Shown: positions 22,304 through 28,619 of the stretch, piece by piece
Layout of the letters: each line of letters begins with the position of its first letter
Position numbering within the stretch: the stretch's first letter is position 1
NCBI GenBank assembly: GCA_017941355.1
Contig: JAGAWN010000245.1
Location: forward strand, 1 to 55,774
Length of the DNA stretch: 55,774 nucleotides
Reading direction: 5' to 3'
Source of the DNA: Ruminiclostridium sp.
Lineage (GTDB): Bacteria > Bacillota > Clostridia > Oscillospirales > Ruminococcaceae
Program-made: the position numbers and the translations under genes
Notes under the pieces: generated by a model
What the model saw: the letters and a program-made list of their open reading frames with translations, nothing else
What the model was told of the DNA's origin: nothing
Database searches by the model: none

Positions 22304-22498
22304 ATGAATATGAAACCGGCATCGCCGGACTGCATTTGGACGCACCGCACCACGCCCGCAATATTTCACGGAAACGGCAGCGGCACTTTTGAGGTTCGGA
22401 ACAGAAGTTCAACAAGACCGCCGCGGCTGAAAGAAATATCATTTCCCGTTTACCGCGGCTATTACTATATGTATGCAGTCCGGAGCGGCAATATTCAT
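22304..22498. repeat. 195-bp block bounded by imperfect inverted repeats
   Basis: ATGAATAT (22304-22311) mirrors ATATTCAT (22491-22498), and CCGGACTGCAT (22325-22335) mirrors ATGCAGTCCGG (22473-22483), with a few bases of slippage between them. The right end overlaps the stop codon of the GGDEF/EAL gene. It has no ORF of its own. It could be a MITE-like element or a large 3'-UTR structure. Confidence 0.5.
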
Positions 22499-25400
22499 AC
22501 TTTCCGATAATTCATCACATCTGTCACATCATCTGTCAGCGTGTATATGATCGGATTTTCTCCGTTTGTCCCAAGATACCATATTCTTGCTTTAAGGATT
22601 ATGTGCCTGCCGTCGGGACGGGTATATCCGAAAACGCATGGAGAACCTTCTTCTCCGGATATTGAGCGTCTGATAGCTTCCGCAACATAGATCCTGTCGG
22701 TATCCGTTATATTTCTGTCAAAAGTGCTGCTGAATTCAACCGGCGCAACTCCGCTGTACCCGAGTATATCAATAAGTGCATCGTTAATGCGCACGATCCA
22801 GAGTCTGCCCATGTTATACTCAAACACAGCCGCTGCTCCGAGATAGCTTTCAAACAGCCGGTTTCCGGCTGAGTCTGAACCAAACAGCCTTATAGGAATA
22901 TCTCCGGCTGCGCTTTCACTGTTCCGGAGATGTTTCGTACTGTTGCTCATCAGTTCCTCGTACTTCGGTACCGGCATGGGGCGCGCGTACAGATAGCCCT
23001 GTATCACGTCACAGCCGACGCTTTTCAGAAAATCCGCCTGATCCAGCGTCTCAACTCCCTCCGCTATCGTCCACAGTCCGAGGGAATGAGCCATTCGTAT
23101 TACCGAACCGATGATACTTCCTCCCTTTTCGCGGTTTGAATTACCGCGCAGGAAGCCCATATCCAGCTTCAATATGTCGATCGGGATATCTTTGAGCGTG
23201 TTCAGAGAAGAATACCCGCTTCCGAAATCGTCCATTGCTATAAGAAATCCAAGCTCGCGGATCTTGCCGATACGCCTGATCAGAGCGTCCTGATCCTTTG
23301 AATATGCGCTCTCGGTGATCTCGAAGTGAAGAAGTTTCTGATCTATCCCGTACTTTTCCTGAAGATCCGAGATCACGCCGACTATCTCGTCATCGACAAG
23401 ACTCATACGCGAGATGTTCACCGAGATCGGTACCGGAGTCAATCCCTCCTCCGTCCATTTGCAGATCTGCCTGAACGCGCTCTCCCACATAAATCTGTCA
23501 AGCTTCTTTATAAAACCGTTTTTCTCGAAGATCGGAATGAACACCCCGGGAGAAACCACGGTCCCGTCCTGTTTTACCCAGCGGCAGAGAGTCTCGGCTC
23601 CCACAAGTTCGCCGGTTGAATGACTGTACTGAGGCTGGAGATACATTGTGAATTCGTTGTCGTACATAGCCTTGCGCATCTGTGATGTGATAGCGGCTTC
23701 AACCGAGATATCCGCCCGCATTTTTTCGTCATACCACATAAACGAGTTGTACGACCTGTCCTCATTTTTCTCCATTGCAAAGGAAGCGCAGTTTGTGAAA
23801 CGTTTGATATCTTCCTTTCCGCTCACTTCACAGAGTCCGAAGCGCATGGTCACAGGCATATTTATCCCCAGATCGCCGCAGTCAAAATAACGTATCGCAG
23901 TCAGTCTGCGCAGGTTCTCTTCGTTATTCTCCATAAGCAGGACGAAGTTGTTTCCTCCCAGCCTTGCGCATATTCCCCTGCCGCTTACTACATCAGACAG
24001 GATATTGGCTATATAAACTATTGCCTGACTTCCGACATTGAAGTTGTACAGATCGTTTATCGTCTTGATGCCGTTCACATTTCCCGCGCATAACACATAT
24101 TTCTTTTCAATGTTTTTCCGGAGCAGTTCGGAAGCCTCCACATGAAAGCCCTGTGAACTCAGCAGACCCGTCAGATCGTCAAAGAACAGCTTGCGCCGGA
24201 ATTCTTCGGTAACATATCTCGAGCAATCCTCAATTCGGGCATATCCCTTTGCAACGGCGACGGCAAGTTCCCGGCAGGTATTGTAACCGCAGTTACGGCA
24301 GTCGATCTGACGCTGCTCCTCACGGGTCATGTGCATTCTGCGGAATATATCGTCGATAACATCTTCGGGAATATCGCGGAACGGGACAAATCTGCTCTCA
24401 AGTTCCACCATGAAATCTGCGGGATCCAGATTTGAAAATTTCTCACCGATAGAACTGTAGAGTTCCCAGTAAGAAGCATAATTCCGTTTCTTCATCATAG
24501 AAGTGCGTCTCAGCCCCTGGAGCGCGCCGAGATATTCGCGGTAGTTTTCCGAAGCCGACCTGTCGGCTCCCGCACCGGAAATGCAGCCATACTCACACCC
24601 CGCAATGGAAACCATGAACGGGCGCGGCACATTCTCGTCCTTTACCGACGCGAGAAGCCCGCGTGTCCTTTTGTTAAGCTTGTGATAGCTTACTATAAGT
24701 TCATCGTCCGAGAACAGCGAGGACATATAGTCTTTCAGTCCGCCGCCGGCGGAAATAATGTCCCCGAAAACGACAGCCTCAAGATCAGGTTCTGTCCTGT
24801 AACCGCTCAGATCAACCTTTCCGATATGCTCCATAAAGTGCTTGTGAGTAACGGTGAAATCTATCTTCACGTCCGATCTGTCGTGGGAAAACTCCGCTTT
24901 TCTTGCTATGCAGGAACTCAGATACACAAAGCGCGACGTATCGCCGAGATATTTCCGTGCGTAGATCGCGGTACACAGAGGCGGAGGCTGAACGGGAACT
25001 ATAAGCTTCACGGCTTCCGGTTCATATCTCTGGATATAATTAAGCACAGTCGGGCATGAATTGAGAATAAACGGTCTTTCAATGATCTCTCCGCTGTACT
25101 CTTTCAGATACCGCGCATTCATATATACGAACAGATCCGCACCGTAGCCGGAATTGTATATGTTCTTTACGCCAAGTGAGCGCAGATAACCGAGTATGTT
25201 ATATGCACGTTCGCCGTAGGTCGTATAGAGATCCGTGGAAACGATCAAAGACAGCTGTTCTCCGGATCCGAGCGCGTCAAGAAAAGCTTCGATGTCATCT
25301 TCATACTCTCTTGCGTCATGCTTGCAGACATTGAAACAATCCCCGCAGCTTATGCAGTTCATATTATTCACCGACAGTCTGCGCACCCCGTTTTCATACA

Positions 25401-25569
25401 CCGAAATGTTCGTCTCTTGTCCCGGACATTCGAGCATACATCTTCCGCATCCTATGCAGTTATTGTTTACCGAGACAAATCCATTGACGGTACTGTTCAT
25501 TTTCTCCTCCGTGTAAGAACCGCTGTTATTCAAAACGAAAGCAGCGTTATATAAGGTCTGCGTTTTCAT
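22495..25569 (-). CDS. H-cluster-like Fe-S sensor fused to degenerate GGDEF and EAL (c-di-GMP phosphodiesterase)
   Basis: Protein of 1024 residues. Two 4Fe-4S ferredoxin motifs at 38-48 and 72-82 lead into a Fe-hydrogenase large-subunit-like domain: L1 NSCP (Cys172), L2 SSCIARKAEF (Cys220) and L3 AGCEYGC (Cys325, Cys329), matching the four H-cluster cysteine ligands. The proton-transfer Cys next to the L1 ligand is Ser171. A further Fe-S domain of the CxxCGYxxC type is at 424-449. GGDEF is degenerate (GGNNF, 538-542), so cyclase activity is unlikely. EAL has the needed residues: ETL (659-661), Asn718, Glu750, DD (780-781), Lys801, Glu837 and Gln857. A PAS-like C-terminus follows. It likely degrades c-di-GMP in response to redox or gas. 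It overlaps the upstream GGDEF gene by ATGA. Confidence 0.85.
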   Translation of the reverse strand: MKTQTLYNAAFVLNNSGSYTEEKMNSTVNGFVSVNNNCIGCGRCMLECPGQETNISVYENGVRRLSVNNMNCISCGDCFNVCKHDAREYEDDIEAFLDALGSGEQLSLIVSTDLYTTYGERAYNILGYLRSLGVKNIYNSGYGADLFVYMNARYLKEYSGEIIERPFILNSCPTVLNYIQRYEPEAVKLIVPVQPPPLCTAIYARKYLGDTSRFVYLSSCIARKAEFSHDRSDVKIDFTVTHKHFMEHIGKVDLSGYRTEPDLEAVVFGDIISAGGGLKDYMSSLFSDDELIVSYHKLNKRTRGLLASVKDENVPRPFMVSIAGCEYGCISGAGADRSASENYREYLGALQGLRRTSMMKKRNYASYWELYSSIGEKFSNLDPADFMVELESRFVPFRDIPEDVIDDIFRRMHMTREEQRQIDCRNCGYNTCRELAVAVAKGYARIEDCSRYVTEEFRRKLFFDDLTGLLSSQGFHVEASELLRKNIEKKYVLCAGNVNGIKTINDLYNFNVGSQAIVYIANILSDVVSGRGICARLGGNNFVLLMENNEENLRRLTAIRYFDCGDLGINMPVTMRFGLCEVSGKEDIKRFTNCASFAMEKNEDRSYNSFMWYDEKMRADISVEAAITSQMRKAMYDNEFTMYLQPQYSHSTGELVGAETLCRWVKQDGTVVSPGVFIPIFEKNGFIKKLDRFMWESAFRQICKWTEEGLTPVPISVNISRMSLVDDEIVGVISDLQEKYGIDQKLLHFEITESAYSKDQDALIRRIGKIRELGFLIAMDDFGSGYSSLNTLKDIPIDILKLDMGFLRGNSNREKGGSIIGSVIRMAHSLGLWTIAEGVETLDQADFLKSVGCDVIQGYLYARPMPVPKYEELMSNSTKHLRNSESAAGDIPIRLFGSDSAGNRLFESYLGAAAVFEYNMGRLWIVRINDALIDILGYSGVAPVEFSSTFDRNITDTDRIYVAEAIRRSISGEEGSPCVFGYTRPDGRHIILKARIWYLGTNGENPIIYTLTDDVTDVMNYRKV

Positions 25570-27473
25570 TCTGTTCGCTTCTGCCCGGCGTTCCTCTGTC
25601 CGCTGCAGACAGAAGAACGTGTGTTTTTCTTTCTTACCTTGTCGGTGTACATAAGATCGTCAGCTTCCGCAAACAGCTTGTCAAAGCTGAGATCGCCGCC
25701 CTTTGCGGTGAATATCCCTATGCTTGAAGAGACCTCGTACGGCTTTACCGCACACTCGTTGTAATCAGCTATAAAGCGTTCGATCCTGTATTTCAGTTCT
25801 TCCTTGTCACAGATCCTCGGTATCGCGGCAAGCAGTTCATCACCGCCGTGCTTTGAGCATATACCGTCGCTGCAGGCAAGTTCCATAGCCTTTGCAACCA
25901 CTCTGATCGCGGTATCACCCTCGGCATGACCGAAGTTGTCGTTTATGTATTTAAGCCCGTCGAGATCGCAAAGCACGAATGTCATTTCCGTGCATTTCCC
26001 GTCCTCGAGCATTTTCTCATACTCCCGCACAAAGCTCTTTCGCGTGTACAGCCCGGTAAGCTCATCGTATTTATAGACTTCTTCTATCCACTCACGCAGC
26101 CGGTTCTGATACCGCATACTGCGCAGACCCGCTATCGCGGTGCTGAGATAGCCGCTTGTCTGTCCTATCTTGTTGTATTCCTCTTTAGAGGGCGACTGAT
26201 AGAAAAAGCAAATATACCCCAGCGGTATATCTATGCAGTGCATTGCCGTGAAAATGAGCGGGACTTTCATTTCCAGAGCCATATCCAGCCTCGGGATTAT
26301 CTGTGAGATGTCCATATTCCTGTCCCTGCCGATAAACGGATTGTCCGTATCCAGCAGCACCACCATATCCCTGCCGAAAGGCGTATCTGTATTGACGACA
26401 GTGGGATCGTATGTGGGATCGGTACACTCTTTCTTCAGAACACAGGTAAGCTCGTAGAATACATGGTCTGTAAGCACCCTTTCGGCTTCGTCTATACATT
26501 CGCAGCCCTGAACCATTGCGCTTATATTATTGAGTTTTCTCTCATCGTTGCGGTACCGGTCAAACATATTCCAGTAAGATGTAACAACATCGGAAACATC
26601 GTTTGCCGACGGCATTATGCAGCCGCAGGATTCCGACAGCACCAGATCCGGCATGATATAGAACGAACTTCCGTTTTCGCAGCCGTCTATCAGTGCCTGC
26701 GCACTCGCTCTCCCCAGCTTTCCGAAATCGCATTTTACCGTACTTATCCTCGGAGAAGTGTATTTCGTTTCCTCTATGCCGTCAAAGCCTGTGACCAGCA
26801 CGTCTTCCGGAACCTTTATACCGTGAGTTCTGAGCGTTCCGCAGACTGCTATAGCCATAGCGTCGTTAGCGCAGATAATAGCTTCCGGGAGCTTTCCCCG
26901 CGAAAGCAATTCCTCGCAAGCCGCAGCTGCCGGCTGAGACCAGAAATCACCGTAGCTTATATGATTTTCATCAAACTCTATCCCGCGCTCTGCCGCCAGT
27001 TCTTTCACAATATCTATGCGTTCTTCCGACGCTTCGTTTCCCTTTGTACCGGCTATCATGCGGATATTCCTGACCTTGTGATCGTCAAGCACATGACGAA
27101 CGATGCTTCTGAACCCGCTTCCGTAGTCAAACAGCATATTTATACAGTCACTGTATGAGGGATTGTCCGTAATTATTATTCTTGAACCCGCCTGTCTCGC
27201 CCGTCTGATTATACCTTCTTTTACGTCACTGTCATGGAGATTGTTCGGGAAAACCACTACCGCGTCAGTGTTTTCATAGTTTATCAGATCAAAAACCGAA
27301 GCCTCTCCCCTGTCCGAACGGGTTTTATGGAAAAGATCGGAATTGACGGTATATACAAAAACGCGCCAGCCGTTTTCCGACAGGACATTATTGAATTCGT
27401 TTATGTAGCTGCAGACATATTCATTGTTTATCTGCGCTGTACATACCGCAGCGATTTTATATCCGTTGATCAC
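25566..27473 (-). CDS. LacI/PBP1-type sensor fused to GGDEF diguanylate cyclase
   Basis: Protein of 635 residues. Residues up to about 300 look like the sugar-binding part of LacI/PBP1 proteins without a DNA-binding domain (for example EAIICANDAMAIAVCGTL and VLVTGFDGIEETKYT). A linker and helical region precede the C-terminal GGDEF domain with signature KHGGDELLAAIP (543-547), a permitted active-site variant, and YDELTGLYTRKSF before it. No inhibitory RxxD is seen. It probably makes c-di-GMP in response to a cytoplasmic small molecule. GTG 27473 follows GGAGG by 8 nt. The next gene, an EAL protein, overlaps by ATGA, so synthesis and breakdown are co-expressed. Confidence 0.85.
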   Translation of the reverse strand: MINGYKIAAVCTAQINNEYVCSYINEFNNVLSENGWRVFVYTVNSDLFHKTRSDRGEASVFDLINYENTDAVVVFPNNLHDSDVKEGIIRRARQAGSRIIITDNPSYSDCINMLFDYGSGFRSIVRHVLDDHKVRNIRMIAGTKGNEASEERIDIVKELAAERGIEFDENHISYGDFWSQPAAAACEELLSRGKLPEAIICANDAMAIAVCGTLRTHGIKVPEDVLVTGFDGIEETKYTSPRISTVKCDFGKLGRASAQALIDGCENGSSFYIMPDLVLSESCGCIMPSANDVSDVVTSYWNMFDRYRNDERKLNNISAMVQGCECIDEAERVLTDHVFYELTCVLKKECTDPTYDPTVVNTDTPFGRDMVVLLDTDNPFIGRDRNMDISQIIPRLDMALEMKVPLIFTAMHCIDIPLGYICFFYQSPSKEEYNKIGQTSGYLSTAIAGLRSMRYQNRLREWIEEVYKYDELTGLYTRKSFVREYEKMLEDGKCTEMTFVLCDLDGLKYINDNFGHAEGDTAIRVVAKAMELACSDGICSKHGGDELLAAIPRICDKEELKYRIERFIADYNECAVKPYEVSSSIGIFTAKGGDLSFDKLFAEADDLMYTDKVRKKNTRSSVCSGQRNAGQKRTE

Positions 27474-27515: not shown

Positions 27516-27544
27516 ATTATATCACAAAGTGCATAACTTTTCAA
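27516..27544 (-). promoter_or_regulatory. Promoter for c-di-GMP pair
   Basis: On the minus strand TTGAAA (27539-27544), 17-bp spacer, TATAAT (27516-27521). It faces away from the K+ channel promoter 37 bp further on. Confidence 0.8.
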
Positions 27545-27638: not shown

Positions 27639-28619
27639 ATGAGCAAGAAACGCGTATTTGACATAATTCAGATCGGCAACAAGGAAGATATTCCGAGCAG
27701 GGTTTTTGACATCTTTATTTCAGTTGTCATAATACTTAACATACTTGTGATGTTTCTCGAAACGTTTTCCGGGCTGTCTTTCATATATCCCGTGCTGAAA
27801 GCCGCGGAATATATCACCGTCATAATCTTCTGCATAGAATACGCGCTGCGCATCTGGACTTCGGATCTTCTCTTTCCCAGAAAGAATAAGCTTGTTTCCG
27901 CACTTCGCTTCATGGTATCATTCGACGGAGTTATAGACCTGCTCACAATACTCCCTTTCTTCTTCCTCAACGGCTTCGTTATTTTCAGAATGTTACGGGT
28001 CGTGCGCATATTCCACCTTTTCAGGATCAACTCTCAATACGACTCGTTTAACCTGATAAAAGATGTTCTGAAAGAAAAAAGAAAACAGCTCTTTTCATCG
28101 CTGTTTCTGATAATTATTCTGATGCTGGCAGCCTCACTCGCCATGTACGGCGCGGAACACGAAGCCCAGCCGGAAGCCTTCGACAATGCTTTTTCCGGTT
28201 TCTGGTGGAGTGTCTCCACTGTGCTTACCGTAGGTTACGGCGACATTTACCCGGTCACGGTCATGGGCAAAGTGATAGCTATTGTTTTCGCTTTCCTCGG
28301 TGTTTGCGCAGTCGCGGTGCCGACAGGTATCATAAGTGCCGGTTTTGTTGAAAAATTCAGCCGGAGCGAACATTCCGACAGCCGCTTCCATGATATCCGC
28401 GAAGTAGGTGAAATTATGGTAGATGAGAACAGTGAACTGCTGGGACTCCCCATTGATGAGATCGACGCGAAATACGGAGTCCGCGTTTATATGATAATAC
28501 GCGGTGAACTGACGCTTGTACCGAACGATCGTATAGTTGCCGAAAAAAACGACATTCTGATAGTGAACACCGACAAGCTTGTCAAGAACAAGCCGCGGAA
28601 AAACGGAAAGAAACGCTGA
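27639..28619 (+). CDS. Voltage-gated-type K+ channel with RCK-C domain
   Basis: Protein of 326 residues with six membrane segments. The fourth has regular positives (RMLRVVRIFHLFRI), as a voltage sensor. The pore helix is followed by the selectivity filter TVGYGD. Past the membrane part, a TrkA-C/RCK-C domain (MVDENSELLGLPIDEID to NDILIVN) lies at the C-terminus, without an RCK-N. It would move K+ across the cell membrane, probably gated by voltage and a ligand at the RCK-C domain. It is divergent from the c-di-GMP operon; RCK-C domains can bind c-di-AMP in some proteins, but that is not shown here. Confidence 0.92.
   Translation: MSKKRVFDIIQIGNKEDIPSRVFDIFISVVIILNILVMFLETFSGLSFIYPVLKAAEYITVIIFCIEYALRIWTSDLLFPRKNKLVSALRFMVSFDGVIDLLTILPFFFLNGFVIFRMLRVVRIFHLFRINSQYDSFNLIKDVLKEKRKQLFSSLFLIIILMLAASLAMYGAEHEAQPEAFDNAFSGFWWSVSTVLTVGYGDIYPVTVMGKVIAIVFAFLGVCAVAVPTGIISAGFVEKFSRSEHSDSRFHDIREVGEIMVDENSELLGLPIDEIDAKYGVRVYMIIRGELTLVPNDRIVAEKNDILIVNTDKLVKNKPRKNGKKR

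Follow-up and report, generated by a model that had tools for sequence, protein, structure and literature searches.

An EAL-domain protein carrying a hydrogenase-derived Fe-S module

The window analyzed here is a stretch of 55,774 nucleotides (positions 1 to 55,774 of contig JAGAWN010000245.1, assembly GCA_017941355.1) from Ruminiclostridium sp., and at 22495-25569 its minus strand carries an open frame of 1024 codons in which a module related to [FeFe]-hydrogenases is followed by domains of cyclic di-GMP (c-di-GMP) signaling. Because a GGAGGA Shine-Dalgarno sequence, read directly at 25505..25510, sits just before the ATG at 25500, translation probably starts at Met24 rather than at 25569, yielding a protein of 1001 amino acids (22495..25500); residue numbers throughout are those of the 1024-codon frame and not of this shorter protein. 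The domain order is a 2x[4Fe-4S] ferredoxin domain, an [FeFe]-hydrogenase H-domain, a PF04060 FeS domain, a degenerate GGDEF domain, an EAL domain, and a weak PAS-like domain, all encoded on the minus strand.

The ferredoxin domain (residues 37-86, 25312..25461; Fer4_7, E 4.7e-8) holds eight cysteines, at positions 38, 41, 44, 48, 72, 75, 78, and 82, and all eight are invariant. The H-domain (PF02906, Fe_hyd_lg_C; residues 124-333, 24571..25200; E 7.2e-19) scores 68.8 bits against a Pfam cutoff of 22.1 and supplies four ligands for the [4Fe-4S] cubane: Cys172 in motif L1 (25054..25056), immediately preceded by Ser171 at the C299 position, Cys220 in L2 (24910..24912), and Cys325 and Cys329 in L3 (24583..24597). 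By profile match and by these four cysteines the module belongs to the PF02906 H-domain superfamily, and in profile matching of the N-terminal part (N-part) with solved [FeFe]-hydrogenases the best hit was 7p5h (E 7.6e-23), CpI (4xdc) matching at E 8.7e-19. The PF04060 domain follows (C424-x2-C427-x4-C432-x16-C449; match at residues 421-449, 24223..24309; E 4.9e-9), then the degenerate GGDEF domain, with GGNNF at 538-542 (residues 463-604, 23758..24183; E 1.1e-11), and the EAL domain, with its catalytic and metal residues present (residues 630-864, 22978..23682; E 2.3e-65). The C-terminal PAS-like match (22561..22794; PAS_3, E 0.007) lies below its cutoff, and a relative from Treponema bryantii (L158) also has a PAS match near its C terminus (PAS_9, E 2.3e-9).

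The first-pass annotation, made from the sequence alone, had read the ferredoxin motifs, the four H-domain cysteines, Ser171, GGNNF, and a complete EAL, and had suggested a profile search for Fe_hyd_lg_C, PF04060, GGDEF, and EAL; the four cysteines, Ser171, and GGNNF were found where it had placed them, and all four families matched.

Orthologues and EAL-linked relatives

Eight of the 71 genomes of the genus, the source genome included, carry an orthologue of the fusion, with 52-67% identity to the window protein. Besides the window's own copy, L006-L010 are full or nearly full length (L010 without the PAS end), the orthologue in G031 ends in a stop, and that in G055 ends at a contig edge. Across residues 24-460 of the eight orthologues, 17 of 17 cysteines are invariant, as against 106 of 420 other residues, and the retention of the cysteines is therefore not due to chance. 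The first-pass annotation had named, beforehand, nonconservation of the cysteines in orthologues as something that would tell against its proposal, and its further claim, that a hydrogenase-derived module is joined to an apparently active EAL domain and an inactive GGDEF domain, is borne out both by Pfam and by conservation across species. The fusion of a hydrogenase-derived Fe-S module with an EAL phosphodiesterase domain is real. An EAL domain is missing from five further long PF02906 frames found in the genus (two in G016 and one each in G011, G017, and G046).

A scan of named genomes with an N-part profile gave 326 relatives, of which the best 80 were kept; these were selected for resembling the N-part of the EAL type and so give no frequency, and 52 of the 80 are EAL linked (50 by local profile plus two incomplete orthologues from the genus). 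EAL-linked proteins occur in metagenome-assembled genomes labeled Ruminococcus or Ruminiclostridium and, beyond the genus and as judged by record title, in Treponema (T. bryantii XBD1002 included), other Spirochaetes, Lachnospiraceae, and Oscillospiraceae. The idea that the fusion is limited to this genus was dropped, since these relatives extend to further families and to a second phylum. Surveys of 396 genomes of the family, 394 of the order (done twice), and 398 of the phylum, with two to four candidates scored per genome, gave no second EAL fusion; the part of the hits that was inspected, loci L052-L080 and some further regions, contained no EAL domain by local profile at E values up to 10, and an initial contig scan with the single protein as the query gave no match.

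The output domain

In the 51 EAL-linked proteins whose EAL region is complete (the 53 in the alignment described below, minus 2 that are truncated), E659, R663, N718, E750, D780, D781, K801, and E837 are invariant (51/51) and Q857 is present in 50, so that the catalytic and metal residues of an EAL phosphodiesterase are all in place in the window protein. A GGDEF or GGEEF motif occurs in none of the 51, and the intact GG(D/E)EF of a diguanylate cyclase is accordingly absent from the window protein as well. Because the EAL residues are invariant and the cyclase motif is missing, the output is very probably c-di-GMP breakdown, with a GGDEF domain that is not a cyclase.

Some GGDEF-EAL tandems are receptors, and the EAL domain might likewise be a noncatalytic, LapD-like c-di-GMP receptor, or the architecture might be a chance concatenation. 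We regard both as very improbable, given the near-complete retention of the catalytic residues, the orthologues of full length elsewhere, and the spread of EAL-linked relatives over further families and a second phylum.

Remodeling of the diiron pocket

According to the excerpts used here of PMC13321311 and PMC6100070, the distal cyanide ligand of the H-cluster is salt-bridged to an active-site lysine (Lys237 in DdHydAB in the former). Pocket positions in the window protein were mapped on the canonical HydA of the same genome; the numbering of C299, M353, and M497 follows the papers cited below. We take the cyanide-binding lysine to be K358 of CpI, and the other CpI numbers used here (A230-P231 and Met327) are likewise our assumption.

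The pocket alignment comprised 156 distinct proteins, 53 of them EAL linked (8 of the window branch and 45 others) and 103 not labeled EAL, after removal of named copies of genus loci and of rows nearly identical to another (the first 300-350 residues being the same). Output labels came from local profiles (EAL and GGDEF) and from regular expressions for what we take to be the family motifs of methyl-accepting chemotaxis protein (MCP), kinase, sigma-54, and HD-GYP outputs. Thirty of the 156 proteins are unlabeled, and one of these, G058:C4, which ends at a contig edge, sits in the second EAL group of the tree described below and was counted with the three MCP sisters in another pocket comparison.

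The four cubane cysteines are present in all 156 proteins, save for one gap at the L1 cysteine. At the K358 position, all eight window-branch orthologues have Arg (Arg223 in the window protein, 24901..24903), whereas Lys is found in 103 of 103 relatives not labeled EAL; over all 53 EAL-linked proteins there are 35 Lys (L192 and L208 among them), 8 Arg (all from this genus), two each of His, Asn, Gln, and Asp, one Ala, and one Ser, so that Lys is lost in 18. The Ala230-Pro231 pair is replaced by Ser111-Thr112 in the window protein (25234..25239). At A230, Ser is found throughout the window branch (8/8) and Asp (20), Ala (17), or Ser (8) in the 45 other EAL-linked proteins, against Ala in 94 of the 103 remaining relatives; at P231 the branch has Thr (5) or Ser (3), against Pro in 42/45 and 101/103 (2 gaps), respectively. 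The acidic residue two before M497 is gone in 8 of 8 (Ser, Cys, Ile, Val, or Thr) and kept in 40 of the 45 and in all 103. Thus, none of the eight orthologues shows the diiron pocket expected of an H-cluster-bearing [FeFe]-hydrogenase (K358, A230-P231, and Glu or Asp before M497). An additional cysteine, Cys199 at the canonical Met327 position, was seen in 51/53 EAL-linked, 42/43 MCP, 6/6 GGDEF, and 14/20 kinase-type proteins.

Other changes in the pocket are less telling. The C299 position is Ser in five orthologues, Ala in two, and Asp in one, and the M353 position is Ser in all eight. Excerpts of PMC10055695 report Ala, Pro, Ser, or Cys at the C299 position of sensory hydrogenases, about 32% of which have Ser at the Met353 position, and with those of PMC8163306 they indicate that an H-cluster can be held without C299, M353, and M497. 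Because HydS enzymes lose these three residues yet hold the cofactor, such changes alone mean little, and Ser171, which the first-pass annotation had set beside the replacement of this Cys in HydS, is neither fixed in the branch nor discriminating. What sets the window branch apart, as judged from the alignment, is the loss of the Lys, the Ala-Pro pair, and the acidic residue. The description of the center as H-cluster-like therefore holds for the four cubane ligands and fails for the diiron pocket, and since the pocket has been remodeled in this branch, a [4Fe-4S] cubane without the standard [2Fe] site is most likely.

Maturases and a possible hydrogen sensor

HydF was found above the cutoff in three of the eight orthologue genomes, the source genome among them, and HydG and HydE were found in the same three; none of the maturases was found in the other five, which are 83-96% complete. 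We rejected this absence as proof that no H-cluster is made. HydG was missing from 13 of 41 high-quality genomes of the genus, and all but one of those 13 contain a match to canonical HydA; the 12, each at least 90% complete and without HydE or HydG found, are G005, G007, G008, G009, G013, G016, G037, G041, G043, G045, G047, and G070. When the HydA region was inspected in 14 genomes without HydE and HydG, 11 showed all five H-cluster motifs, the exceptions being G058 (none, probably because another frame was picked), G008 (last motif missing at a contig end), and G043 (one pattern missing). Binning loss or another maturation route may account for such genomes. Nor does HydG track the pocket: among the 45 genomes that carry the other EAL-linked loci it was found in 17, comprising 3/10 with the Lys lost and 14/35 with it kept. 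In the genome of L155, which has Ala at the Lys position, HydG was not found and the EAL-type protein is the sole PF02906 match, which is suggestive.

These data bear on the alternative that the protein is a true H2 (or CO) sensor, in which a full H-cluster is held with Arg223 in place of Lys358 and works slowly, as in HydS, and H2 controls the EAL domain. Such a sensor would fit the invariance, in all eight orthologues, of the four H-cluster cysteines and of a Glu three residues past Arg223, the HydS-type layout with Ser at the Met353 position, the tolerance of known HydS enzymes for the changes discussed above, the presence of HydE, HydF, and HydG in the source genome, and the naming of the ruminant stomach, an H2-rich setting, in three of the seven named orthologue records. 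It is hard to square with the replacement in 8 of 8 of four pocket residues that the 103 other relatives retain almost throughout and, weakly, with the five genomes in which the maturases were not found. We consider it unlikely, while still a serious contender.

Phylogeny and other outputs of the module

N-part trees were built with the pocket columns omitted, the first from 94 of the 156 proteins plus HydA and a more careful one from 85 of the 156. In these trees, most EAL-linked proteins fall into one clade of 48 rows (98 in the first tree by the Shimodaira-Hasegawa-like approximate likelihood ratio test, SH-aLRT), which contains several long branches and, in the first tree, all of the rows without Lys at K358, and five others (L193, L197, L208, L219, and L220) form a separate EAL group. 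The careful tree requires two changes of the EAL state (with the contig-end protein omitted), at least five at the K358 position, and eight at A230-P231.

The same input module carries GGDEF, MCP, HD-GYP, kinase, and sigma-54 outputs besides EAL. Within the genus, sisters with an intact GGDEF domain are L043, L044, and L046, and a copy in the source genome, L049, ends at the contig edge where its GGDEF domain begins; sisters with an MCP and a receiver domain are L045 and, in the source genome, L048 (both by Pfam) and L047 (by similarity). The GGDEF-joined modules L043, L044, L046, and, from outside the genus, L054 read RTGGDEF or RSGGDEF; L049 and L216 are likewise joined to a GGDEF domain. 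In another genus of the family, a hydrogenase-like module is joined to an HD-GYP domain (L052:805-2826, minus strand; HHERLDGTGYP). Pfam tallies, taken over the first 25 of 32 families for a set of 40 relatives and the first 25 of 37 families for a set of 29, gave 20 and 8 MCP and 11 and 7 HATPase matches, respectively; a sigma-54 activator was found in 12 of the 29 and was absent from the 25 families listed for the 40. The sigma-54 activators that share this hydrogenase-like input (L106 and others) have no counterpart among the [FeFe] outputs in the HydDB entries consulted.

Neighboring genes

Upstream of the fusion gene on the same strand lies a gene for a protein with a LacI-type binding domain and a GGDEF domain (motif GGDEL; 25566..27473, by Pfam), which ends 65 bases from the probable start of the fusion and whose own end overlaps the longer frame by 4 bases; the two genes would share one operon. 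A promoter-like TTGAAA-N17-TATAAT at 27516..27544 (minus strand) precedes the GGDEF gene, but it is a consensus match only, and such matches are not clearly enriched (12 in the region versus 8.9 ± 3.2 in shuffles). A divergent ion-channel gene (Ion_trans/TrkA_C, by Pfam; 27639..28619, plus strand) lies beyond, and the same gene, judged by its first residues, adjoins the orthologue in L035-L039.

By local profile, a FIST-domain gene lies directly upstream on the same strand in 21 of the 52 named loci of the EAL type (L144-L150, L152, L157-L160, L162, L163, L165, L167, L168, L171, L172, L181, and L186) and in 0 of 28 others; no FIST gene was found by the same profile in the window. G055 shows the gene order LacI-type GGDEF, FIST, fusion, and G030 shares it as judged from sequence similarity.

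An alternative is that the H-domain survives only as a relic with a structural or docking role, its clusters stabilizing the fold, and that control is exerted by the PAS domain at the C terminus or by a partner, either the adjoining ligand-sensing GGDEF protein or, in other loci, the FIST protein. The FIST linkage of the EAL-type loci and the PAS-like C terminus would be in keeping with it, but a relic would hardly retain every cysteine of the N-part while most other residues change, and the occurrence of one input on six kinds of output is the pattern of a sensor. We therefore think this alternative improbable.

A possible redox input to c-di-GMP turnover

On balance, we lean modestly toward reading the window protein as a cytoplasmic c-di-GMP phosphodiesterase with a redox-sensing Fe-S input derived from a sensory (HydS-type, M2f-like) [FeFe]-hydrogenase, probably without the standard [2Fe] site. 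Electrons would enter the N-terminal clusters from reduced ferredoxin or another donor, and changes in the redox state of the cubane in the H-domain and of its neighbors would drive a conformational shift. The dead GGDEF domain, which perhaps binds GTP, could relay this shift to the EAL domain, raising or lowering c-di-GMP breakdown, and the adjoining ligand-sensing GGDEF protein would be the source of the opposing synthase activity. Of the inputs suggested in the first-pass annotation (H2, CO, or redox state), redox is thus favored, and binding of H2 or CO appears less likely in the window branch in view of the pocket replacements.

Several points weigh against this redox reading. Arg could still bind cyanide, and backbone contacts at positions 230-232 could outlast the change of side chains; since 35 of the 53 EAL-linked proteins keep the Lys, the whole class may still bind an H-cluster. 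The source genome has all three maturases, and characterized HydS enzymes take up the H-cluster after losing C299, M353, and M497 (excerpts of PMC8163306 and PMC10055695). The missing maturases of the five orthologue genomes, which we counted weakly in favor, are a poor test because many HydG-less genomes carry a canonical HydA, and HydG does not separate genomes that have lost the Lys from those that have kept it.

In a broader and more tentative account, to which we give slightly less than even chances, a hydrogenase would have given up its diiron site and become a redox sensor linked to c-di-GMP. A large EAL clade, spread over two phyla and mostly in gut bacteria, would never have lost the cubane ligands while its [2Fe] pocket decayed several times, and one genus would have wired related H-domains to a c-di-GMP synthase, a phosphodiesterase, and chemotaxis. 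The fusion would be a hydrogenase-derived input to c-di-GMP signaling, tying the electron or hydrogen economy of gut anaerobes to the switch between motile and sessile life. The relatives form a natural series from full-pocket to pocket-lost proteins that share the cubane ligands throughout, and the series makes it testable whether a sensory hydrogenase signals via H2 at the diiron site or via the redox state of its Fe-S clusters.

Comparison with known systems

The first-pass annotation had not known of this fusion. The architecture is not unique, given the EAL-linked relatives among the named loci, and no [FeFe]-hydrogenase fusion to GGDEF or EAL was found among the titles and abstracts listed in searches of the openly licensed literature, a scope that leaves out preprints and most subscription journals. 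A hydrogenase fold with [4Fe-4S] clusters only and no H-cluster has a precedent in Nar1/IOP1, a eukaryotic Fe-S assembly factor without a signaling output.

The closest layouts are those of sensory groups C (M2f, Thermotoga maritima HydS) and D (M2e, TamHydS), which, in the excerpts of PMC8163306, have two N-terminal [4Fe-4S] clusters, the H-domain, and a Cx2Cx4Cx16C motif as their C-terminal cluster, and whose loss of Cys299, Met353, and Met497 the window branch shares. The window protein differs from both in its degenerate GGDEF-EAL output and perhaps also in the replacement of the cyanide-binding Lys and the Ala-Pro pair within its branch, and from group C in that GGDEF-EAL, rather than a PAS domain, directly follows the Cx2Cx4Cx16C cluster, a weak PAS match lying only at the far C terminus. 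HydDB groups C1, C2, and C3 likewise join a sensor module to a signaling output (histidine kinase, chemotaxis, and phosphatase, all putative), and the HydDB entries consulted (PMC5037454) include no c-di-GMP-linked [FeFe] subtype.

Redox or gas input to c-di-GMP turnover is itself familiar from the PdeO heme PAS protein, Bhr-HD-GYP, RmcA, and PdeC, as described in excerpts of the c-di-GMP sensor review PMC8846402, in which searching for the terms "hydrogenase," "iron-sulfur," "4Fe-4S," and "Fe-S" gave no hit. Those proteins use heme, hemerythrin, flavin, or a disulfide. The nearest published parallel is the putative, diguanylate cyclase-linked [NiFe] group 2c, for which H2 sensing leading to c-di-GMP has been proposed (PMC5037454, in part); it is an unrelated metal enzyme, and it would make c-di-GMP where the window protein would break it down.

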